A DNA stretch of 64,000 nt from Halovivax ruber XH-70 (GTDB taxonomy: Archaea > Halobacteriota > Halobacteria > Halobacteriales > Natrialbaceae), in NCBI RefSeq assembly GCF_000328525.1, contig NC_019964.1, positions 2,852,001 through 2,916,000 of the forward strand. Reading direction: 5' to 3'. The notes below the pieces were generated by a model, which was given only the letters and a program-made list of their open reading frames with translations, did not search any database and had not been told where the DNA came from. A program made the position numbers and the translations under genes. Within the stretch, counting starts at the first letter, position 1. Each line of letters opens with the position of its first letter. Below, one piece after another: positions 2,120 to 24,848 of this stretch.

Positions 2120-2335
2120 GACGGCGCCGAAGTCACTAACGTCCGCTTTGATGAAGAAGTCGGTCCGGCGTACCTTGACGCCCACAATACTGGCGATACA
2201 GACCGCACCGAAGCCATCAAACTGGTTATTGAACACTATCTAACCACAGACTTGGAGGACAATCTCGCACTCTACTACGCAAATATCGGCGAACGTGTCG
2301 AACCGTCGCTGATCGGGACCAAACGGGAATTCTAA
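2120..2335 (+). pseudogene. C-terminal gene fragment, convergent with polB
   Basis: An open frame of 71 codons, with clear coding character, ends in TAA at 2333-2335. It begins right after an in-frame TGA at 2117 and has no ATG, GTG or TTG before the coding-like part. The product contains VRFDEEVGPAYLDAHNTG, RTEAIKLVIEHYLT and ends SLIGTKREF. The middle resembles the helix of small RHH or partner proteins. I read it as the remains of a gene that lost its 5' end, or a frameshifted small gene. Its stop overlaps the polB stop on the opposite strand. Confidence 0.5.
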
Positions 2336-4434
2336 AACGCTCCGATTGTCGGTTCAACCCGGTCCGCCAGATACTCTCGGATAGTTTCTTCACGCCACCC
2401 ACTCGGCGACAGCACACTCTCCGCTGCCCGAATAACCTCGGTCGCGTAGAACGCCGCGTCGTACTCCTCGATCCCCTCGTGGGGTAGTTGCACGCGTTCA
2501 CGGCCAGATTTCGATTCGTCGACGACCACGTACTCGACAGGCTGCCCGGGTTCGCGACCGATCCCGGCAGCCTCGGCGCGTTCCAACGCTGCAACCGACC
2601 GAGTTGACTGCGTGTACTCTTCTAGGCGCTTTGACGAGCGAACTTCGATCACGAGGTCCATCGGGTTCACCTCGCCCGACCGAAGTCGCTGCAGTTGCCG
2701 ATCGAGTCGATCACAGACGGCCTCGGGTGTCCGTGTCGAATCGTATACCTCGATCAACTCACGCTGGCAATCGGCGACGTACGGCGGCGTCGAGTGCTGG
2801 CGAACCTCGATGCCGCGGAACTTGTACTCGCCGTCGTGCTTCCGACCGAAGTACTTCGTCAGTGCACCGGCCTTGCTGTCGGCCATCGGGACGAACGCCA
2901 CCCAGTCGAAGCCGCCCTCGTACTCGAGACGAATCCCAGCGTCGGCAAAGATCTCGCGAGCGACAGCTTCGAGCGCAGTCTGGGCCATCCCGTCATTGGC
3001 CTGGACCCAGAGACTATCGACGATCCCGTGGACGACTCGCCAGCCGTTGGCCTCGAGCGTTTGCTTCGCATTGAGCAAGATCTCGCGGGCATAGGCGTTG
3101 ATCGCCTCGTGGCACTCGATCCGACCGAACTTCGCGTTCGAGAAGCCCTGGTAGCCGAAACACGAGACGAGGATCCACTTGATCGCGTCCGACTTCTGTT
3201 GGAGTGCCTGCTTTCGCCCTTCATCGTCGGTCTCCCGAATCTCGGCCTTGATCGCGTCCCGATCCGAAATCAGCGGTTCGAGGACGTCCGCCAGATAGCC
3301 ACGTTCGTCGCAGATCGAGTAGCCAAGTCCCGGGACGTCTTCGCTATCGTGACAGTCGCAGCAGATCGTCTCCGGGCTAATGTTCCGCGTGACGATGATG
3401 TTGGGATACAGCGACGAAAAATCGAGCTCGTGGACATCCTCGTGAACGCCGACGTCGGGGGCGAACGTGTAGCCGCCGCGGTCGGCCTCGTGAAGCGTCC
3501 GCATCGACTTGAAGAATTCGTGGCGCCAGGACTTCCACGGCGTCAAGACATCTAGTTCCCGCGATTCAGTGATCTGGATCGCCGTAAGGACGTTGCCGAT
3601 CGACGCCCAGGCGAGTTCCTGGAGGGGTTTCCCGGATCGTCGCGATAGGTCGAGGATCCCCTGCAGACCGGATTGATCGTAGAAGAACGTGTTCGACCGA
3701 TCGATGATCGCCCGGCCAGGGACGTTGTACCGGGCGGGAGAGTGCCCGACCTGTCCATAGCTTTCGAACGTCGAGGCGCCGGCGAGCGTTTGCCAGCCAG
3801 AACGACGACCCAGGTCGAAGTCGTCGCGACCAACCACATCGGCTGCATCGTACAGCGCCGGCACGAGTTCGCTCGACGAGAGGATCAGGACATCGGGGTC
3901 GATACGGCCGAGGGCCCGGTCGACACGCTCCACGACCGCCTCTGGACTACCTGACACCCGCTCACCGTCGACCGACAGCTTCGAGAGGACATCGTCGACC
4001 ATCGCGGTCGCCGGCGCGGTGAGTCCGAGCGTCCGGAGGTCCCGGGCGGGATCCGGCGTCTGTCCCGTTTCGAGACAGTATCGGAACTCCCGCGAGAAAT
4101 CCACGTTGAAGCACTTCACATCTCCCGGCCGCCCGATGTCCCTGAGGTGGGAGGCGAGTTCGTCGACGGCGTCAATATCCGGGACGTCGATCCGAAGGAC
4201 GGGCTCAGGATCGTGACGCCAGCCACGTCGCCACGGTTCGAGTTGCATATCCATCGCGAGCGGATGCGGATCGAGCCGATCGGCGAGCTCCTCGAACGAG
4301 TGGTCACCGTCCGGGATGGCGTAGATTGTCGGCGTGAAGTCCGTGTTCGAGACAGTCTCGACTCCGTCCGAGGTGGCGTGCCACTTGAGAACCTCGCCGT
4401 CGAGGTAGTCGACCTTGAACAGTCCCGCCGTCAT
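2332..4434 (-). CDS. Divergent family-B DNA polymerase (PolB2-like)
   Basis: A 700-aa family-B polymerase. Motif A is intact (DFSSLYPNII, D338). Motif B is a variant (K419-x3-V-S-C-F-G). Motif C reads HGIVDSLW, so only the second metal-binding Asp (D473) of the usual DTD remains. The N-terminal half has no recognisable DxE, N-x3-F-D or Y-x3-D exonuclease motifs, so proofreading is probably lost. A Cys-rich segment at 358-375 may bind zinc. The ATG at 4434 is chosen because it overlaps the stop of the upstream 84-aa gene (ATGA); an in-frame extension to 4632 is read-through of that gene. Likely role: translesion or repair synthesis rather than bulk replication. Confidence 0.9.
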   Translation of the reverse strand: MTAGLFKVDYLDGEVLKWHATSDGVETVSNTDFTPTIYAIPDGDHSFEELADRLDPHPLAMDMQLEPWRRGWRHDPEPVLRIDVPDIDAVDELASHLRDIGRPGDVKCFNVDFSREFRYCLETGQTPDPARDLRTLGLTAPATAMVDDVLSKLSVDGERVSGSPEAVVERVDRALGRIDPDVLILSSSELVPALYDAADVVGRDDFDLGRRSGWQTLAGASTFESYGQVGHSPARYNVPGRAIIDRSNTFFYDQSGLQGILDLSRRSGKPLQELAWASIGNVLTAIQITESRELDVLTPWKSWRHEFFKSMRTLHEADRGGYTFAPDVGVHEDVHELDFSSLYPNIIVTRNISPETICCDCHDSEDVPGLGYSICDERGYLADVLEPLISDRDAIKAEIRETDDEGRKQALQQKSDAIKWILVSCFGYQGFSNAKFGRIECHEAINAYAREILLNAKQTLEANGWRVVHGIVDSLWVQANDGMAQTALEAVAREIFADAGIRLEYEGGFDWVAFVPMADSKAGALTKYFGRKHDGEYKFRGIEVRQHSTPPYVADCQRELIEVYDSTRTPEAVCDRLDRQLQRLRSGEVNPMDLVIEVRSSKRLEEYTQSTRSVAALERAEAAGIGREPGQPVEYVVVDESKSGRERVQLPHEGIEEYDAAFYATEVIRAAESVLSPSGWREETIREYLADRVEPTIGAF

Positions 4435-4685
4435 GACTCGCGCTCGTCGAATTGCGTTTCCAATTCTGTGATCCGGCGCTCCTGTGCGAGTACGATCGAG
4501 ACGAGCAACGCCAACATCGGATCCGTCGGATTCTGGTAGCCCGCTGCGTCGGCGTACTGCCGACCGTGTTCGAAGAGTCGATCGAAGTGTGGCTGATCCT
4601 GCCCTCGGAGCGCGCGGCGATAGTCGCCCCATCGCTCCTCGATCGACCGCACCTGATCACGGTAGGTCGGGTTAGTGCGCCCCAT
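4431..4685 (-). CDS. Small polymerase-associated protein
   Basis: An 84-aa protein starting MGRTNPTYRDQVRSIEERW, with a basic/aromatic N-terminal segment and a C-terminal helix (ALLVSIVLAQERRITELETQ) that could be a short coiled coil. It is sandwiched between the RecA-like gene (14-nt overlap) and polB (4-nt overlap), so the three are clearly one translation unit. I recognise it as a small protein commonly found next to this polymerase in haloarchaea. No biochemical function is known to me. It may bridge the polymerase and the RecA-like subunit. Confidence 0.75.
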   Translation of the reverse strand: MGRTNPTYRDQVRSIEERWGDYRRALRGQDQPHFDRLFEHGRQYADAAGYQNPTDPMLALLVSIVLAQERRITELETQFDERES

Positions 4686-5343
4686 GAATCTGCACCTCCG
4701 TCGGGGCGTCCGCGTAGAGCGGTTCGCGGGCCCGCAGCACCTCGGCCCAGAATGCGAGCGTCGTTTGTACCCAGCCGTCCTCCTGTGGATAGACGAGCGT
4801 CTCGAAGTCTTCACCCTCGAACCGAGGACCGAGCGGGGTCGAACGACAACTCACGGTGTGCGACGCGATTTCCGATACCGGTTCCGATAGTGCGTCGTCG
4901 CGAGCACGGGTGACCAGGACTGGACACTCGTGGTCGCGGGCGAGTCGAGCCAGCCGCGCGAGTGTACGGAGCAAGAGGTTGGTCGCTTCTCCCGATCGAA
5001 GACTATCGTCGCGGTACTGCCCGTCGACGGCCGGTGCGACGATGAGCGAGGGATCGATCCGCCGTTTCGACAGCGTCGCGACGAGCTCGTGGTGTTGCTG
5101 GGGTGTAAAGCCGCGTGCGACCTCGATCCGGTCGAGTATGCGGTCCGACGGTGAGACGTCTGTCAGCGTGTCCGTACGACCGTGACCGTGACTATCGACC
5201 CAGTATCCGTTGCCGCCATCGATGAGGACGTGATCAACGACGAGGGAGTGGAGTGGCGTGATCGGGTCGTCCGCTTTCAATAGTGTGATTCCGGGTTCGA
5301 GATCCGGGAGTTCCGGGATGGCTGGCTTATCGAATCGGTGCAT
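4672..5343 (-). CDS. RecA/RadA-like ATPase paralogue without Walker A
   Basis: A 223-aa protein with the outline of a RecA/Rad51 core. The strand where the P-loop should be reads LEPGITLLKADDPITPLHSLV, with no GxxxxGK[ST]. This is followed by VLIDGGNGYW, an ARGFTPQQHHELVATL segment, and a later strand LVTRARDD. The Walker-B-like strand is LIVAPAVDGQYRDD. It therefore probably does not hydrolyse ATP and acts as a structural or loading partner. It is the first gene of the operon with the small protein and polB. The arrangement recalls ImuA, the RecA-like protein of the bacterial ImuA-ImuB-DnaE2 mutasome. Confidence 0.75.
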   Translation of the reverse strand: MHRFDKPAIPELPDLEPGITLLKADDPITPLHSLVVDHVLIDGGNGYWVDSHGHGRTDTLTDVSPSDRILDRIEVARGFTPQQHHELVATLSKRRIDPSLIVAPAVDGQYRDDSLRSGEATNLLLRTLARLARLARDHECPVLVTRARDDALSEPVSEIASHTVSCRSTPLGPRFEGEDFETLVYPQEDGWVQTTLAFWAEVLRAREPLYADAPTEVQIHGAH

Positions 5344-5350
5344 GAGTGAT

Positions 5351-5403
5351 ACAATCTCTTGGATTGTTGTATTGGTCGGGGCCCGATTTCCGAAATTTCC
5401 GAA
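5351..5403. promoter_or_regulatory. Dyad and tandem repeat in the polB-operon / MBL divergent promoter
   Basis: Two elements lie just upstream of the RecA-like gene: an inverted repeat ACAATC(5351-5356)-TCTTG-GATTGT(5362-5367), and a perfect tandem 9-mer, ATTTCCGAA at 5386-5394 and 5395-5403. Both sit in the 211-bp spacer between the divergent repair operon and the MBL gene and could be operators coordinating the two. Confidence 0.4.
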
Positions 5404-5517
5404 GCGGGAATGGAGCCCCGGCTACAGCCGGTCGCAAGAGATCCTACGAGTCGTTCCACACTGGATAACCCCGCATCGATAGCCGTTCGTCGGGAGATTG
5501 GCGCTACGCTAGGAAGG

Positions 5518-5527
5518 TTATATATTA
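5518..5527 (+). promoter_or_regulatory. TATA box of the MBL-fold gene
   Basis: TTATATATTA, centred 32 nt upstream of the ATG at 5555. This is the spacing expected for a transcript with a very short or no leader. Confidence 0.6.
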
Positions 5528-5554
5528 TCGCACATAGACGGGGAAAACAGGATA

Positions 5555-7270
5555 ATGGAGATACAGTATCGGCACGCGAATCCGTACTCCGGGCGTGAGT
5601 CCGTCGTCTTGCGAATCGACGGCTTGCTCGCCGACCAGACCGTCTGCGTGCTGATCGACGCCGGGGAGAACGTCTCCACGGCCGACCTCCTCGACGAAGC
5701 CGACGACGAATACCTCTCGGCGGTCTGTTTGACCCACGCTCACCTCGACCACTACCAGTCGCTCGGTGAGGCGTTGGATCACGCGGCGCCCTTGTACGCC
5801 GCCCCGGATACGGCGCAGATCCTGGAGGACGTCTTCGAGGCGGGCGAAGACCACTACGACCTCGCGGGGACGGATCGAGTGCTAGAGCAGTTGACGCCCA
5901 TCGACGAGTGGACACAGATCGTCTCCGGGCTTCGAGTATGTCCGGTACCGGCGGGCCACGCGCCGGGTGCGGCGGGGTTCCTGTTCGAGGTCGAAGACGG
6001 CGACGAGCGGCGGACGATTCTCATCACTGGCGACTTCACCATGCGTCGAGCGGCCGGCTACCCCGGGTTCGATCCCGAGGCGTTCGTCGACGTCGACGCG
6101 GTCGTCCTCACCGCTGCGACGAGTGCCGACTTCGAATCAACCCTCACCGACGCCGTCGGCACCGTCTGCGAACGCGTCCGGGCGGGTTCGACCGTGCTGG
6201 CGACGGCGAGCGGGCTCACTGGAGTGCAGATCGCGTACCTCCTCGGGCACCTCACCGACGAGCGGGGTGAAGCCTGGCAGATCATTCTTGTTGGCCAAGT
6301 CGCAACGCTCTACGAGCAGCTCGGCTACGACGTGCCGAACGTCGAAGCGATTCCCGACTTTACCGATCCCTCTACCGTACTCACTCCAGGCGGCGTGACG
6401 ATTGCCGGGCCTGAGGTGCCAGTTGACGGGAGTGCCGGCCGTCTCTATGAGACGATTGCGGACGATCCCGGCGCGACCCTCGTTCAGCTCACCGGTGGCG
6501 CGACCGAACCCGTGACTGGCGACGCGTGTACCACCCACCAGTTCACGCTGAGCAATCACCCAACCGAAGAAACGATCGACGATATCGTCGAGACCCTGTC
6601 GCCAGTCCACGTCGTTGTTACGCATCAACAGGGCGCTGCTGCGTCACAATACAAAGACAAGTACGACAGCTTCGTCTGGGCGACGGACGACACGCAGACG
6701 TACACGATTCTCGACGAGACGGGATGGACACCTCCACCCTGGGTGACCGAGTCGACGACGCGACGCGTGATGGCGGGGACGAACGCGACAGCGCTCCGCT
6801 TCGGCGATGGAGGAATGGATCTCGAACTCCCGTCCGTTGAACGTGCTGACGACGTCGATCTCCGCGCCGAAGGGCTGGATATCGACCGCCTTCGCGATCG
6901 ACTCCACGATGAGCCGGAAGGCCTTGCGCCGAAAGGAGTTCGAGGTGAACAGACGACTGATGCCGATTGTCCGGACACGACAAACTCTGTTCCAGATCCC
7001 AACAAAGCCGGCATGCAGTCGATCGACGAAAGCGACGCTGAACCGTCACTGACCGATATCGATGCCCGGCTGCAGCGCATCGAGGCGGCGGTCGCCGATA
7101 GCGTCGTGGAGGCTCACGTCGTTGACGCCGGCGACGGGACGATCTTGCTCCGGCTCGAGGATCCGCCGGACGAACTAGAACACGGCCAGCAGCTTCGTAT
7201 TAGACTTCCGGCAGACCTGGACACCGAAGACGGTCACGAACGCAATGGTCGTGACGACGTCGATCGGTGA
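5555..7270 (+). CDS. Metallo-beta-lactamase-fold hydrolase, beta-CASP-like
   Basis: A 571-aa protein. The zinc site is clear: THAHLDH (H61, H63, D65, H66), a later GHAPGAAGF histidine near 133, and ILITGDF near 161. The order and the downstream VVVTHQQG segment near 357 suit the RNase J/CPSF-like beta-CASP group of nucleases. The C-terminal 150 residues are variable and acidic, with a short helix (IDARLQRIEAAVADSV) and a beta-rich end. It diverges from the RecA-like/polB operon, and I infer a nuclease role in the same repair process. It could act on RNA or DNA; the sequence does not decide. Confidence 0.8.
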   Translation: MEIQYRHANPYSGRESVVLRIDGLLADQTVCVLIDAGENVSTADLLDEADDEYLSAVCLTHAHLDHYQSLGEALDHAAPLYAAPDTAQILEDVFEAGEDHYDLAGTDRVLEQLTPIDEWTQIVSGLRVCPVPAGHAPGAAGFLFEVEDGDERRTILITGDFTMRRAAGYPGFDPEAFVDVDAVVLTAATSADFESTLTDAVGTVCERVRAGSTVLATASGLTGVQIAYLLGHLTDERGEAWQIILVGQVATLYEQLGYDVPNVEAIPDFTDPSTVLTPGGVTIAGPEVPVDGSAGRLYETIADDPGATLVQLTGGATEPVTGDACTTHQFTLSNHPTEETIDDIVETLSPVHVVVTHQQGAAASQYKDKYDSFVWATDDTQTYTILDETGWTPPPWVTESTTRRVMAGTNATALRFGDGGMDLELPSVERADDVDLRAEGLDIDRLRDRLHDEPEGLAPKGVRGEQTTDADCPDTTNSVPDPNKAGMQSIDESDAEPSLTDIDARLQRIEAAVADSVVEAHVVDAGDGTILLRLEDPPDELEHGQQLRIRLPADLDTEDGHERNGRDDVDR

Positions 7271-8021: not shown

Positions 8022-8312
8022 TCATTCGTGCCGTCGTGCGAGAGTCGGATCGATGCGGACTCCATCGGGGATCGACTCCTCACCGAGAGCCTGTTTGACT
8101 CGAATCTGGTGTTTGCATTCACGTCCCCGGTACATCGCGTCTGGACACTCACACGCACCCTGACGAAGATCGACAGTGTAGATGGCCGTCTCGCCCGAGT
8201 AGACGTCGAACATCCCCGGTGCTTTCGAGACGACAATCATCGCCTCGGTAGCCGCGCGAACCGCGAGTTCATCGCCACAGGACCCCAAATTGTCCGGTGA
8301 AGTTGCGCTCAT
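8022..8312 (-). CDS. SWIM zinc-finger protein
   Basis: A 96-aa protein with a textbook SWIM motif: CECPDAMYRGRECKH, i.e. CxC-x9-CxH, at about residues 54-68. It is preceded by a beta-hairpin (FDVYSGETAIYTVDL). SWIM domains bind DNA or proteins and often accompany transposases, Swi2/Snf2 ATPases and recombination mediators. Third gene of a minus-strand operon (8795 to 8022) driven from the four-palindrome intergenic region. Free-standing SWIM proteins like this are typical of haloarchaeal elements. Confidence 0.8.
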   Translation of the reverse strand: MSATSPDNLGSCGDELAVRAATEAMIVVSKAPGMFDVYSGETAIYTVDLRQGACECPDAMYRGRECKHQIRVKQALGEESIPDGVRIDPTLARRHE

Positions 8313-12818: not shown

Positions 12819-13853
12819 ATGAGTCGTCTCGAACCGATCAGCCCCAGCAACGCCATCGAGATGTACATGGAGGGGCGGCGAGACGAGCTCAGCAAAGAAA
12901 CAATCCCGTCCCACGTGTACCGCCTCGAAGCGTTCGAGCAGTGGTGTGAAGAGGAGGGAATCGATAACCTGAACGACCTCACTGGACGGGACCTGTACGC
13001 ATTCCGGGTGTGGCGTCGAGAAGGACATGGGAAAGGACGCCAGGAGATTGCGACGATCACCCTGCGCGGGCAGCTCGCCACCGTTCGGGCCTTTCTCCGG
13101 TTCTGTGCCGATATCGACGCCGTTCCGGAAGGGCTTCACGAGAAGGTCCCGCTGCCGAAGGTTTCTGGAAGCGAGTCAGTGAGTGATACGACACTCGATC
13201 CAGAACGGGCGATCGATATTCTCGAGTACCTCAATCGCCACCACTACGCATCTCGAAAGCACGTCACACTGTTGCTCCTCTGGCACACTGGCGCGCGAGT
13301 AGGCGGGATTCGAGGGCTCGATCTCGACGATTGCCATCTCGATTCCGACCCTTCGGGACTCGAATTCGTGCATCGGCCAGCCCAGGATACGCCACTGAAA
13401 AACGGTGAGAAAGGCGAACGGTGGAACTCTATCGGTGGCCACGTTGCCGGCGTTGTCCAGGATTACATCGACGGACCGAGAGAGTGTGTAACCGACGAGT
13501 ACGACCGAGCCCCGCTTCTGACGACAACCCACGGCAGAGCGTCCCGTTCGACGTTGCGAGACACGCTGTACGACATCACCAGACCCTGCATGCGCGGTGC
13601 GGAGTGTCCACACGACCGGGATCCGGACGAGTGTGAGGCGACGAACTACGTGAAGGCGAGCACGTGCCCGTCGTCACGATCTCCGCACGATGTTCGGAGC
13701 GGTCGGGTAACGGCCTATCGACGGCAAGACGTCCCCCGCCAGATCGTCGGCGACCGGCTCGACGCGAGCGGCGACATCCTCGATAAGCACTACGACCGCC
13801 GTAGCGAGCGTCAGAAGGCGAAACAGCGACGCGACTATCTTCCAGACCAATGA
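12819..13853 (+). CDS. Tyrosine-type site-specific integrase
   Basis: A 344-aa protein with an N-terminal SAM-like core-binding domain (about 8-105) and a C-terminal tyrosine recombinase catalytic domain. Catalytic residues are visible: R160 in HTGARVGG, H290-x-x-R293 in SPHDVRSG, and Y325 in DKHYDRR. The GDRLDAS segment stands where the second His/Trp usually lies. A Cys/His-rich insertion at 257-284 (CMRGAECPHDRDPDEC) is a usual feature of haloarchaeal integrases and may bind zinc. Last gene of the island, pointing outward, so it probably integrated or excises this element. Confidence 0.9.
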   Translation: MSRLEPISPSNAIEMYMEGRRDELSKETIPSHVYRLEAFEQWCEEEGIDNLNDLTGRDLYAFRVWRREGHGKGRQEIATITLRGQLATVRAFLRFCADIDAVPEGLHEKVPLPKVSGSESVSDTTLDPERAIDILEYLNRHHYASRKHVTLLLLWHTGARVGGIRGLDLDDCHLDSDPSGLEFVHRPAQDTPLKNGEKGERWNSIGGHVAGVVQDYIDGPRECVTDEYDRAPLLTTTHGRASRSTLRDTLYDITRPCMRGAECPHDRDPDECEATNYVKASTCPSSRSPHDVRSGRVTAYRRQDVPRQIVGDRLDASGDILDKHYDRRSERQKAKQRRDYLPDQ

Positions 13854-14456
13854 CCGGACTAGACACGTTACTAGAGGTAGAACCGAGTCCACAGTGCAGG
13901 TCCGACAGGGCCCATCCAGAAACTGCACGATTTGTGACCGTCCCTGGAAGTGCAGTTTCCGGGCACGTTACCACCATAAAACCCCGTTCGCTAATTCGAT
14001 AATCGGGGTTCGAAAGTGGGCCTAGGTGGCGACCGCCCGAGGGTCGCCGCCGTCTTGCGATTGTTATAGCCGAAATGGGATAGTCGGTGTGAAATATCGG
14101 TTTGGGCCCTTCTGAAGGGGACGTATCGTCCTGCGTGGAACCAACACGTATTTTACCAATCAGTCAAATCTCCCTCACGATTCGTTCTATGACGAGCCGG
14201 TTCGCGGTTCGCCCGGTGTTCAAGCCTCTCTCGCCGCCCGCCGCGCGACGGGCCCGATAGCCGCAGCATTCGGGCTCGCTCCGCTACCGTCACGGTAGCT
14301 GCAGTTTCTCGCCACCAGACACGGACAGATGCCGACATCCACCGAGTCGCCGGCACCGCCGGCGCTCACACGATCTGCGATCGACAGTCGAACCGCCTTC
14401 GAGCCGCTCGCTCGAATCTCGCGCCGCCGCGTGGCTCTCAGTGGAGGGGATCATCG
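13854..14456. other. Element-chromosome transition region with hairpins
   Basis: No gene recognised; the open frames here are arginine-rich shadows. Two inverted repeats follow the integrase: ACCCCG (13981-13986) with CGGGGT (14004-14009), and GGCGACC (14028-14034) with GGTCGCC (14042-14048). A further CCCTTC-T-GAAGGG dyad lies near 14107-14119. GGTTCGAA at 14007-14014 looks like a tRNA T-loop, but no tRNA can be folded around it. This is the best place to look for the attachment site. Base composition rises to the chromosomal level after about 14.15 kb. Confidence 0.4.
14283..14299. promoter_or_regulatory. 17-bp near-perfect palindrome
   Basis: GCTACCGT-C-ACGGTAGC: 8-bp perfect arms around one base, 158 bp upstream of the MFS gene. 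It could be a regulator site for the exporter or a relic of the element end. Confidence 0.4.
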
Positions 14457-21626: not shown

Positions 21627-23762
21627 CTACGACCCGATGAAGTCGGTTAACGCCGTCTCCTGGATATCGTCGGTCTCCTCGAACTCGTTGGCGAGTTTCT
21701 TCGGGTCAGGTATTTCGAACGAGATCGAGGGATCTGGGCGCGTAACAGCGGCCTGGACGCGCTCGGCTTCGTCGAGAATGGGCACCTCTTCCGTCGTGGT
21801 TCCCGATATCGTACACCAGGCCCGCGATCGGGAGATGGCGACGAACGCTTCGTTTCGTCTATGGACAGCACTCTCGCGGTATTCTGGGTGTTGAACCCAC
21901 TCGAGGCCAACGAGGTACACCGACGCAGCTTCGTTCCCCTTGGCCCTGTGGATCCCAGTGATCGTAACGGCGTCATCCACGGCGAAGGTCTTGCCGTCCC
22001 CGTTCCAGACGCCGTTCGCGTCGAGGTCCCGGGATTCCAGTTCGTTCGCGAGCATCGCGCCGGTATCCACGTAATCGTATCCGAGGACGATGACCATGAT
22101 CTGGTCAGGAGCGAGGCCTTCCGCTACGTCTCGAACGATGCGGTCGGCAACCCACTGGAGTTCCGAACCCTTGGTCGGGAACGCGTTGGTTTCGACGAAC
22201 GGCTTCGCCGCCGGCGTTTCGTGAAGCGGATGCGGTGAGTGGTCGTCCGGCCGGCGGATCGTCGCTGTCTCGCCGACTTCCCTGAAGTCAGCGTCCACCT
22301 CGTACCCGAGGCTCTCCCAGCCGTCGGTGCGCGTGATCGTCTGGACCGGTCCGTCTTCGGCCATGAGGCCCATCCCGATCGCGTGTCCTGCCATGAGAAC
22401 CGGTCTGGGGGATCGATAGGCCTGGCGCATGACGTGGCTCTTCTGGACGCCACCGGGGTAGCTCCCGCGCAGGTCGAGGACCGGGTCGTCGTTCTCGTCG
22501 GTGCCGAAGAGGTTCGTCGGGCTCGGGGCGGAGAGACTCGTCAGACTCTGTGCCTCGTCGTACGCCCACACGAGCCGTTGGTTCTGGGCCAGCGCTTCGA
22601 GACAGAGGGTGAAGAAGTTCGATCCGAAGTCCTGCGCCTCGTCGATGAATATCCCGTCGTAGAGCGTCGGTATCGACGCTTCGTCCAGGAGTTCCTCGCA
22701 ACACGCGTCGAAGTAGTCGTCACGATCGGGAAACGCCTCACGTGCATCGTAGAACGTTCGATGGTCGCGACCGGCCGCTCGGCAGGCGTTGTAGTATATC
22801 CCGTCACCGGCCTGCGAGCCGCCCCAGGCGTGGATAATGTCGAGGTTATCCCAGTTCGGGTCGTCGTTCGCGAAGCGGCGATAGAACCGCTCGACGAGCG
22901 CCGTGAGCTGATCGTAGAGGCTCTTCGAGTGGAACGTGAACGCGAGGGACAACTCCGGGTACTTCGCGTGGGTCCGCGCCACCTTCATCGCGAGGAGGAC
23001 GGTCTTTCCTGATCCGGCGATGCCACGGATCTGCTGGGGACCCGGAGGAACGAGCATCCCGATCTCCTGCTGTTGTGCGTCGAGTCCCCGGAGCCCCTTC
23101 GTCACGTGCTCGTAGTGTTCTCCACGCCGCGTCGGTGTTCGCGGTGCACTGGTCCGGTCGCCGCTGATCGGTTGGCCGCAGCTGAGGACGTCCCTGGCTG
23201 CCACGAGTTCGTCGTCCGTGAGCGGGTCGAACGTCCGGACCGCCGCCAGTGCGTCGCGAAGTGCGACCGGTGTCAGATCGTCGCTCAGCAGCGTCCGCGG
23301 AGCGGCCGGACCGTCGAATCCACGGCCTTCCCACTCGTCTCTGGTGATGTTTGGAAGCGCGACGAACGTGTTGACTGGAACCCGACAGCCGTCGAGATCG
23401 GAGAGCGCCGGTTCGCTCGTGAAGAACCGACGCAAGAACAGCGCCTGGTTGCGCGCCTGCTGGTGCGGCGTCGATCGGGACTGGCTGATATTTTGCAAGT
23501 ACCACGTGTGGCCCTCGATCCGATCGATGTGGTCGATCCGATACCCCTTGACCTCGATCACGAGCAGTCCCAGGTCACGGTGGAGGAGGACGATATCTGG
23601 TTCGTGGTCGAACGTTTCACCCCCTTTGTCGACGATCGGATACTGGTGGTACGCGACGCCCTCGTCGGTCGCGTCGAACGCGCCCTTGAGGCGCTCCCAG
23701 ACCGCCAGTTCGGCGTCGATCCCCGGAAGTGACTCGTCGGCCGTCGTGGGGATGAATTCCAT
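21627..23762 (-). CDS. NERD-domain UvrD/Rep-type helicase
   Basis: A 711-aa protein. Residues about 15-140 form a NERD nuclease-like domain with D56 and the E70-V-K72 motif in LGLLVIEVKGY. The rest is an SF1A helicase: Walker A RGIAGSGKT (246-254), Walker B DGIFIDEAQDF near 360, and the C-terminal GIHRAKGNEA and NEAFVAISRSR motifs IV-VI. Length is normal for NERD-UvrD fusions. A TATA-like box (23784-23790) 25 nt upstream suggests a leaderless single-gene transcript. Such fusions are scattered among prokaryotes and are suspected defence or DNA-processing factors, but the role here is inferred. Confidence 0.85.
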   Translation of the reverse strand: MEFIPTTADESLPGIDAELAVWERLKGAFDATDEGVAYHQYPIVDKGGETFDHEPDIVLLHRDLGLLVIEVKGYRIDHIDRIEGHTWYLQNISQSRSTPHQQARNQALFLRRFFTSEPALSDLDGCRVPVNTFVALPNITRDEWEGRGFDGPAAPRTLLSDDLTPVALRDALAAVRTFDPLTDDELVAARDVLSCGQPISGDRTSAPRTPTRRGEHYEHVTKGLRGLDAQQQEIGMLVPPGPQQIRGIAGSGKTVLLAMKVARTHAKYPELSLAFTFHSKSLYDQLTALVERFYRRFANDDPNWDNLDIIHAWGGSQAGDGIYYNACRAAGRDHRTFYDAREAFPDRDDYFDACCEELLDEASIPTLYDGIFIDEAQDFGSNFFTLCLEALAQNQRLVWAYDEAQSLTSLSAPSPTNLFGTDENDDPVLDLRGSYPGGVQKSHVMRQAYRSPRPVLMAGHAIGMGLMAEDGPVQTITRTDGWESLGYEVDADFREVGETATIRRPDDHSPHPLHETPAAKPFVETNAFPTKGSELQWVADRIVRDVAEGLAPDQIMVIVLGYDYVDTGAMLANELESRDLDANGVWNGDGKTFAVDDAVTITGIHRAKGNEAASVYLVGLEWVQHPEYRESAVHRRNEAFVAISRSRAWCTISGTTTEEVPILDEAERVQAAVTRPDPSISFEIPDPKKLANEFEETDDIQETALTDFIGS

Positions 23763-23883
23763 ACGCTACACTAATAGCGAACTGATATACCAGTTTCCCT
23801 ACCGATACCCTTGACAGTTCTGTGGGCATCACGCCTGCCGTGTCGATCGGCGGACTTCACTCGATCGCGAACCGATCACCCCG

Positions 23884-24072
23884 TCAATCGTCGTCGTCAG
23901 TGCCGATGCGGTCGGGGATCGTCGTGGGAGCGTCCCCCGGCAGCGAGACGTCCCGGAGCGTAAAGCGCTTTACAACCATGTCGTAGCAGAAGACGAGCGT
24001 GCCGAGGATGATCATCGTGTCGCCGGGGAGGCGCGCCCAGAAGAGCAGCTGGACGAGTTCGCCCTCGTAGAA
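23884..24072 (-). pseudogene. Truncated heme-copper oxidase / NorB-like C-terminus
   Basis: About 62 codons with no start, reading [19 protein letters not shown], then [18 protein letters not shown] and an acidic end to a TGA at 23884. The W-x-R-x-P-G-D-x3-I pattern followed by a last membrane helix resembles the C-terminal helix of quinol-dependent nitric oxide reductase or related oxidases. The rest of the gene is missing: the frame upstream runs into unrelated sequence. It abuts a rhodanese fragment on the other strand. Confidence 0.55.
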
Positions 24073-24077
24073 GGGAG

Positions 24078-24236
24078 GCTGCGCGCGGCGGCGTAGCTCT
24101 CGGCGAACGCGCCTCCGTCGCCTGGTTCGCTCTGCACGAACTGCTTGGCTACGAGGACACCATGAACTACGACGGGTCGTGGACCGAGTGGAGGAACCTG
24201 GTAAACGCGCCGATCGAGACGGGCGCAGCGGAGTGA
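24078..24236 (+). pseudogene. Truncated rhodanese-like sulfurtransferase C-terminus
   Basis: About 52 codons without a start, ending [20 protein letters not shown] then [13 protein letters not shown] and a TGA at 24234-24236. The ER-S-x-W-F-x-L-x-E-L-L-G-Y and NYDGSWTEW patterns are the hallmark of haloarchaeal thiosulfate sulfurtransferases just after the active-site loop. The catalytic Cys loop and everything before it are gone. It faces the oxidase-like fragment across a junction of about 5 bp, marking an old deletion or insertion breakpoint. Confidence 0.6.
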
Positions 24237-24239
24237 AAC

Positions 24240-24848
24240 CTATGTCGGGCCACGATCGACGGCCGCGTCGTACTGTTCTCGGGTCACCGTGTACCGGTGG
24301 AGGTCGGCGACCTCGTCGTCCATCGGGACCCAGTTCCGGAGGACGCCGTCGTACTGCCCGCCGTGGGCCTCGATGTACCGCTGGATCGCACGTTTCGATT
24401 TCTCGTTGCCATCGTTGTGACCGGCGGTCACGAGCTCCAGGTCGAGGCGGTCGAAGGCGAGTTCCATCAGCGCCGCCGCACGCTCGCCGGAGTAGCCGCG
24501 ACCCCAGAACGGTTTCCCGAGGATGAGTCCGAGCCGCCCTGTCCGGCGATCCCACTCGCAGCTGAGCGTGGTCAGCCCCGCGAGTTTGCCGGCGCTGTCC
24601 TCGCCCGCCTTCGGCCGAACGACGTACTCGGCGCCCTCGGTCTCCGCCCAGCGGCGTTCGGCATCGTCAATCATCTCCTGGGCATCCTTCAGCGTCCGAT
24701 ACGGGCTCTGTGGGACGTGTTCGAAGACCTCGTCTACCCCCTCGCCGTAGCCGACTGCGAAGCACTCGTAGAGTTCGCGGACGTCGACCGTTTCGTGGCA
24801 GAATCGTTCGAGCCTGAGGCGGTCAGTCGCGACCGTTTCCGGGAACAT
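24240..24848 (-). CDS. GNAT acetyltransferase (RimJ/RimL type)
   Basis: A 202-aa protein with the RimJ/RimL layout: TDRLRLERF at the N-terminus, a GLTTLSCEWDRRTGRLGLIL strand pair, then the acetyl-CoA loop (FWGRGYSGERAAALM) and the N-x-K-S-x-R-A-I-Q segment (GNEKSKRAIQRYI). It transfers an acetyl group to an amine of a protein N-terminus or small molecule. Single gene on the minus strand. Substrate not predictable. Confidence 0.85.
   Translation of the reverse strand: MFPETVATDRLRLERFCHETVDVRELYECFAVGYGEGVDEVFEHVPQSPYRTLKDAQEMIDDAERRWAETEGAEYVVRPKAGEDSAGKLAGLTTLSCEWDRRTGRLGLILGKPFWGRGYSGERAAALMELAFDRLDLELVTAGHNDGNEKSKRAIQRYIEAHGGQYDGVLRNWVPMDDEVADLHRYTVTREQYDAAVDRGPT

Follow-up and report, generated by a model that had tools for sequence, protein, structure and literature searches.

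Which function is served by the three overlapping minus-strand genes near one end of a 64,000-nucleotide stretch of the Halovivax ruber XH-70 chromosome (NC_019964.1, positions 2,852,001 to 2,916,000; hereafter the window), and does the divergent gene next to them share in it? The three genes code for a B-family DNA polymerase (PolB2), a small helical protein (PPB2) and a RecA-like protein (iRadA), and their neighbor for a hydrolase of the metallo-beta-lactamase (MBL) fold. An initial annotation had joined all four in a possible archaeal mutasome transcribed from one shared promoter and carried by a mobile element. We find that the three minus-strand genes very probably encode the PolB2 translesion-synthesis complex, as cargo of an integrated element of conjugative type. 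This reading draws on the identities, order and overlaps of the genes, their diagnostic residues, the conservation of the operon and of a promoter element, and the boundaries of the mobile element.

The operon encodes a PolB2-PPB2-iRadA mutasome

The PolB2 operon was first described in 2014 (PMC4104785) and the complex was modelled in 2025 (PMC11791011). Its published signatures are the replacement of the first Asp of the polymerase DxD motif, a D(K/R) motif, a PPB2 with an MGRT sequence and with Arg3 and Arg9, an iRadA without ATPase residues, and the gene order iRadA-PPB2-PolB2 (PMC11791011). In the window, the three genes are adjacent, on the same strand and in this order (Table 1). The start of PolB2 was placed at position 4434, as the 766-aa mechanical open reading frame begins too far upstream. 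iRadA and PPB2 overlap by 14 bp (4672-4685) and PPB2 and PolB2 by 4 bp (4431-4434, ATGA), which makes it plausible that the three genes form one translation unit.

PolB2 scored 1036 bits against NCBIfam NF004418 (type B DNA-directed DNA polymerase subfamily; cut-off, 692). In Pfam, DNA_pol_B alone was matched, and no exonuclease domain was found, even at E<=10. Motif A is intact in the window copy (DFSSLYP). In an alignment of 18 haloarchaeal PolB2 sequences motif A was kept as DFxSLYP, and motif A and the second Asp of motif C were invariant. Motif C read HGIVDS in all 18 sequences, so that the first catalytic Asp is lost (D-to-I) and the second retained. The D(K/R) motif corresponds to D245-R246 of the window protein (P0001), and D245 is invariant in the same alignment. 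PPB2 carries the MGRT arm together with Arg3 and Arg9, as in the published signature. As a single sequence, iRadA gave weak matches to Rad51 and RadB (Pfam Rad51, E=6e-4, under the curated cut-off). A profile of the family, however, reached archaeal RadA and Rad51 structures in the PDB with E values down to 1.9e-13, and the relationship to RadA held in this profile search. No Walker A motif (GxxxxGK[ST]) was present in iRadA (P0003). Because the published signatures all match, the window operon is, as judged from its sequence, a member of the already described PolB2-PPB2-iRadA mutasome. Thus, the initial annotation was right in its core idea of an archaeal mutasome formed by a family-B polymerase and a RecA-like protein, and right in its parts: the degenerate polymerase, the small protein and the RecA-like protein without Walker A are all there, and overlap. 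The system itself, however, was already known.

The window operon shares with the PolB2 mutasome of Sulfolobus islandicus and others the gene order, the lost motif-C Asp, the D(K/R) motif, the MGRT arm and an ATPase-dead RadA homologue (PMC11791011, PMC4104785). It differs in that it lies on a 43.4-kb element, has a second, diverged copy in the chromosome, has no orc1/cdc6 gene adjoining it, and is preceded by a GGAA promoter element. The bacterial ImuA-ImuB-DnaE2 module, which also combines a RecA-like protein with error-prone polymerase, is alike in function; the window polymerase, however, is of the B family, and the two are not homologous as systems. No Y-family (ImuB) or C-family DnaE2 match was found among the operon proteins with Pfam and NCBIfam.

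PolB2 was present in 82 of the 146 Halobacteriales genomes sampled. Of 41 haloarchaeal neighborhoods of PolB2, nearly all had iRadA and PPB2 beside it (43 copies of PPB2 across those sampled), and a gene for an Orc1/Cdc6 protein of about 340 aa was frequently found upstream of the operon. The second mutasome of the Halovivax ruber chromosome is complete (L065; G000:C1, about 730,457-733,925), adjoins genes for Orc1/Cdc6 and for a DUF7344 protein, and also has the GGAA element. At least 104 records of haloarchaeal plasmids, pNRC200 among them, also contain PolB2; none of the candidates in viral contigs was confirmed.

Table 1. Coordinates of the features at the PolB2 locus, in window positions
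Feature	Position	Strand	Remarks
PolB2, B-family DNA polymerase	2332..4434	-	700 aa
PPB2 (arCOG07300-like), small helical partner	4431..4685	-	84 aa; N-terminus MGRTNPTYR
iRadA, first gene of the operon	4672..5343	-	223 aa; RadA family, no Walker A
Divergent intergenic region	5344..5554		211 bp; two promoters, one for iRadA (-) and one for the MBL gene (+)
Tandem GGAA element, TCGGAAATTTCGGAA	5388..5402	-	57 nt from its first GGAA to the iRadA ATG
TATA-like sequence of the MBL gene, TTATATATTATC	5518..5529	+	about 26 nt before the ATG; similar TATA in MBL relatives
Beta-CASP MBL-fold hydrolase (P0004)	5555..7270	+	571 aa; neighbor, judged outside the mutasome
Tyrosine recombinase (Phage_int_SAM_1)	12819..13853	+	recombinase of the element
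attR, 22-bp direct repeat GGGTCGCCGCCGTCTTGCGATT	14041..14062		attL 43,379 bp upstream
attL	-29338 (G000:C1:2822662), beyond the window		same 22-bp repeat

PolB2 operons carry one of two alternative promoter elements

The tandem GGAA element stands upstream of iRadA at a position that recurs in its relatives. We searched for tandem [TG]GAA-N4/5-GGAA at -75 to -50 in upstream regions. In the first set of neighborhoods the rule was satisfied at 26 of 36 loci, nearly always 56-60 nt before the iRadA ATG, and in 8 of 607 other upstream regions. Most of these eight belonged to mutasome genes, namely PPB2 (L093 and L099), separated PolB2 genes (L107, L110 and L114) and, in L084, the degraded iRadA. 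We then fetched 40 loci as a second set; 16 of them satisfied the rule, against 0.1% in shuffled sequences. Many of the loci that failed carried a CTTTCACTTTCA-type sequence at the same position, just upstream of the TATA region. This motif was reported from Halobacterium in 2008, at the promoters of the UV-induced radA1, top6B, vng17 and vng280 (PMC2556686). Among 74 operons that begin with iRadA, 46 had the GGAA element (47 were counted, one being a slicing artefact), 12 had the UV motif, none had both and 15 had neither; each motif occurred in 6 of 634 background upstream regions. As these operons have common ancestors, and some come from the same genome, the counts are not numbers of independent events. 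The GGAA motif was first picked by eye, the UV motif was sought after the GGAA failures had been seen, and the start codons are predictions. Haloarchaeal PolB2 operons thus carry one of two mutually exclusive promoter elements, which is a new finding. We provisionally found no earlier description of the GGAA element at PolB2 operons in the open-access literature.

Of 27 linked Orc1/Cdc6 genes, 15 were preceded by the tandem GGAA, in most cases at a distance of 56-62 nt from the start, and a single TTCCGGAA stood at about the same distance in several others. Both mutasomes of Halovivax ruber use GGAA; the UV motif TTTCACTTTCA precedes radA and a top6B-like gene in this genome, and neither mutasome. 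In H. salinarum, the polB2 of pNRC200 has TGAAATCCGGAA 60 nt before the ATG. GGAA operons were found on secondary replicons in 23 cases and on chromosomes in 13, and UV-motif operons in 3 and 7, a difference that was not significant (Fisher p=0.077).

The UV motif of radA1 and top6B is a tandem short repeat that lies about 50-60 nt before the start, upstream of TATA (PMC2556686); the window operon has GGAA-N5-GGAA in its stead. Another likeness is to the damage regulation by Orc1-2 and A(N)TTTC in Sulfolobus, in which a short, non-palindromic element stands just upstream of the B recognition element (BRE) and an Orc1/Cdc6 paralogue is implicated (PMC5817253, PMC9738581). The GGAA element differs from it, however, in sequence and in lineage. 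That 12 relatives of the window operon carry a published UV-responsive motif at the same promoter position makes it more likely that the window operon, too, would be induced by damage. Possibly, a dedicated damage regulator has the GGAA element as its operator. This regulator, plausibly the linked Orc1/Cdc6 paralogue, would drive itself and the PolB2 mutasome in a second haloarchaeal damage-response circuit, apart from the TTTCACTTTCA circuit of radA and brought in by plasmids and integrative elements together with their own mutator. We regard this proposal as tentative, and as somewhat less likely to be right than wrong.

Six TTTCACTTTCA sites were present in the Halovivax ruber genome (L280-L285), all with an ATG 55-65 nt downstream, and the genes concerned include radA, the top6B-like gene and small uncharacterised proteins. 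These sites are likely to represent a UV regulon in this organism. A broad GGAA regulon was considered and rejected. Of 35 GGAA sites in the genome, several have an ATG at +57-60 (at genes for an HNH-repeat protein and a DUF5817 protein, among others), but of 30 orthologues of the DUF5817 gene only one, the Halovivax ruber copy itself, has the element, and these wider matches are probably due to chance.

The PolB2 complex itself is already known; the part worth following is the pattern of two promoter elements. We found no description in the open-access literature of how the haloarchaeal PolB2 complex is switched on, and the finding of two alternatives at a single fixed position, with the known UV motif of radA1 as one of the pair, makes the question of induction directly testable in Haloferax or Halobacterium.

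How the complex may act

We propose that DNA damage would activate transcription from the promoter in which the tandem GGAA stands just upstream of TATA/BRE. iRadA, unable to use ATP, would dock on PolB2 through a motif resembling the one used in RadA oligomerisation, and a trimer of PPB2 would insert its MGRT arm between iRadA and PolB2, as in the PolB2-PPB2-iRadA complex (1:3:1) modelled from other archaea (PMC11791011). Where the replicative polymerase leaves a primer end that is mispaired or contains a lesion, the complex, devoid of proofreading, would then extend it, and damage would be tolerated with mutations as the cost.

In 2014, it was proposed instead that an inactive PolB2 and iRadA form a regulatory complex that modulates origin firing with the linked Orc1/Cdc6. 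The loss of the motif-C Asp and of Walker A, the lack of a recognised exonuclease domain and the frequent orc1/cdc6 linkage are all consistent with such a role. Sulfolobus Dpo2, however, which has lost the same Asp, is reported to be active and to be required for damage-induced mutagenesis, in work cited by the 2025 paper (PMC11791011). Moreover, neither motif A nor the second Asp varies among the 18 aligned PolB2 sequences, the UV motif is found in 12 promoters, and no orc gene adjoins the window copy. A purely regulatory function seems improbable to us; rather, by homology with the Sulfolobus enzyme, polymerase activity and a part in mutagenesis would be expected in Halovivax ruber.

Several observations weigh against an active bypass complex in the window. 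Halobacterium NRC-1 can do without polB2, whose deletion was reported to be possible in Haloferax volcanii as well. Some copies are visibly in decay: in a same-genus genome whose PolB2 is 85% identical, an internal stretch of iRadA is deleted (L084:11214-11633), and the pNRC200 operon has a truncated PPB2 together with a gene for an IS200/IS605-family transposase. The window copy could be weakly active or be retained by hitchhiking. In the extreme case, it would be a decaying passenger, non-functional cargo of an integrative and conjugative element kept by chance beside the MBL gene. However, none of the three genes in the window is truncated. Each diagnostic residue is in place, and so is the promoter element, which is found at a fixed spacing across divergent relatives. 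We therefore consider it unlikely that the operon is a mere passenger, and favor a functional translesion-synthesis complex.

Some PolB2 operons depart from the common plan. In L093 and L099, iRadA was not recognised, PPB2 is a variant without the MGRT arm (starting with MSQT or MMQS), and the promoter element precedes PPB2 instead of iRadA. In others, a stand-alone gene for a DEDD-type exonuclease-like protein overlaps the end of PPB2 (L107:15378-16022, L114:1054-1698 and L120:12372-13031), and a remnant of it is found in pNRC200 of H. salinarum (L286, from 2373). The protein has the motifs DIETTGF, FDLPFLRTR and HNVAD, in this order, and matches Pfam RNase_H_2 and, weakly, DNA_pol_B_exo. Since PolB2 itself has no exonuclease domain, this protein could serve as its proofreader in trans.

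The operon is carried by an integrated element

The suggestion that the mutasome is carried on a mobile element was borne out. GC content is 0.47-0.63 from about 27.5 kb to the left of the window to about +14 kb in it, and mostly 0.62-0.70 outside. The 22-bp att repeat occurs only twice in the whole genome, and in a genome of the same genus (G134) the outer flanks are contiguous, forming an empty site (G134:C17, about 22319-24586). The repeat pair and the empty site prove the ends of the element and its length of 43.4 kb. Inside it are matches to a coupling protein (TraG/VirD4) and to TrbL/VirB6 of type IV secretion systems (T4SS). From its recombinase, att repeats, empty site and T4SS genes, the predicted nature of the element is that of an integrated one of conjugative type. 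The idea that the att site lies within an RNA gene was discarded, for Rfam places a tRNA, with a likely intron, about 130 bp outside, upstream of attL, and not at attL. Likewise, we found no support for a fusexin identity of a 587-aa protein neighboring the T4SS genes. A type I restriction-modification system (L064:1894-8172, about -18106 to -11828 in window coordinates) is encoded on the element as well.

Mutasomes are known as mobile cargo in bacteria: MucAB and RumAB are relatives of Pol V borne by plasmids and by integrative and conjugative elements, with a Y-family polymerase, a UmuD-type partner and control by LexA. The window operon would resemble them in being a mobile and probably damage-controlled mutasome. 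With this mutasome on a conjugative-type element, and PolB2 on so many plasmid records, mutagenic damage tolerance would be transferable in archaea, in parallel with MucAB and RumAB.

The MBL gene is judged to be an unrelated neighbor

The zinc hydrolase with beta-CASP-like features foreseen by the initial annotation is genuine. The MBL protein has the family's HxHxDH, H and D metal motifs and the His residues of motifs B and C, and the residues H61, H63, D65, H66, H135, D160, H335 and H357 are invariant in an alignment of 17 sequences (A1); the acid of beta-CASP motif A is apparently replaced (LTAAT, as judged by eye). An AlphaFold2 model (mean pLDDT 82.7) matched CPSF73 in Foldseek (E=9e-23), and also IntS11 and the aCPSF1/FttA of archaea; all of these are beta-CASP enzymes that cleave RNA. 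The SNM1 and Apollo repair nucleases are distant sequence matches.

Membership of this protein in the mutasome, in contrast, did not hold. It could be argued that the hydrolase serves the complex as a fourth subunit, trimming DNA or RNA, with the divergent promoter co-regulating both sides; the gene is adjacent, its metal-ligand motifs are intact, and a metallo-nuclease, distantly similar to SNM1/Apollo, could process lesions. However, the MBL family occurs in 37 of the 146 genomes and lies next to PolB2 in this genome only; the next closest pair, on one contig, is about 15 kb apart. In none of the 41 other PolB2 neighborhoods did an MBL gene adjoin PolB2, and there is none beside the same-genus operon with the 85% identical PolB2. 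Conversely, none of iRadA, PPB2 and PolB2 was found near 47 further MBL loci retrieved with a profile, in fetched stretches of at most 10 kb on each side, the sole PolB-like match (L134) being distant (31%). The shared promoter fared no better: the 211-bp spacing is exact, but it holds two separate promoters, and the tandem GGAA is absent in front of the MBL gene. Given these results and a fold closest to RNA-cleaving enzymes, a four-part system is most improbable and is largely refuted by the missing co-conservation, which the initial annotation itself had named as a ground for refutation.

We judge the MBL gene, from its genomic distribution, to be an unrelated neighbor outside the PolB2 mutasome. 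Because its close relatives L066, L068 and L069 lie near genes for T4SS coupling proteins, it looks like cargo of T4SS-bearing elements. The upstream DNA of the gene and its relatives is alike in the TATA region only, and this comparison did not reveal the junction that placed the gene beside iRadA. To the right of the MBL gene, among other small genes, lies one for a small SWIM zinc-finger-like protein (8022-8312), with a Pfam match just below the cut-off.

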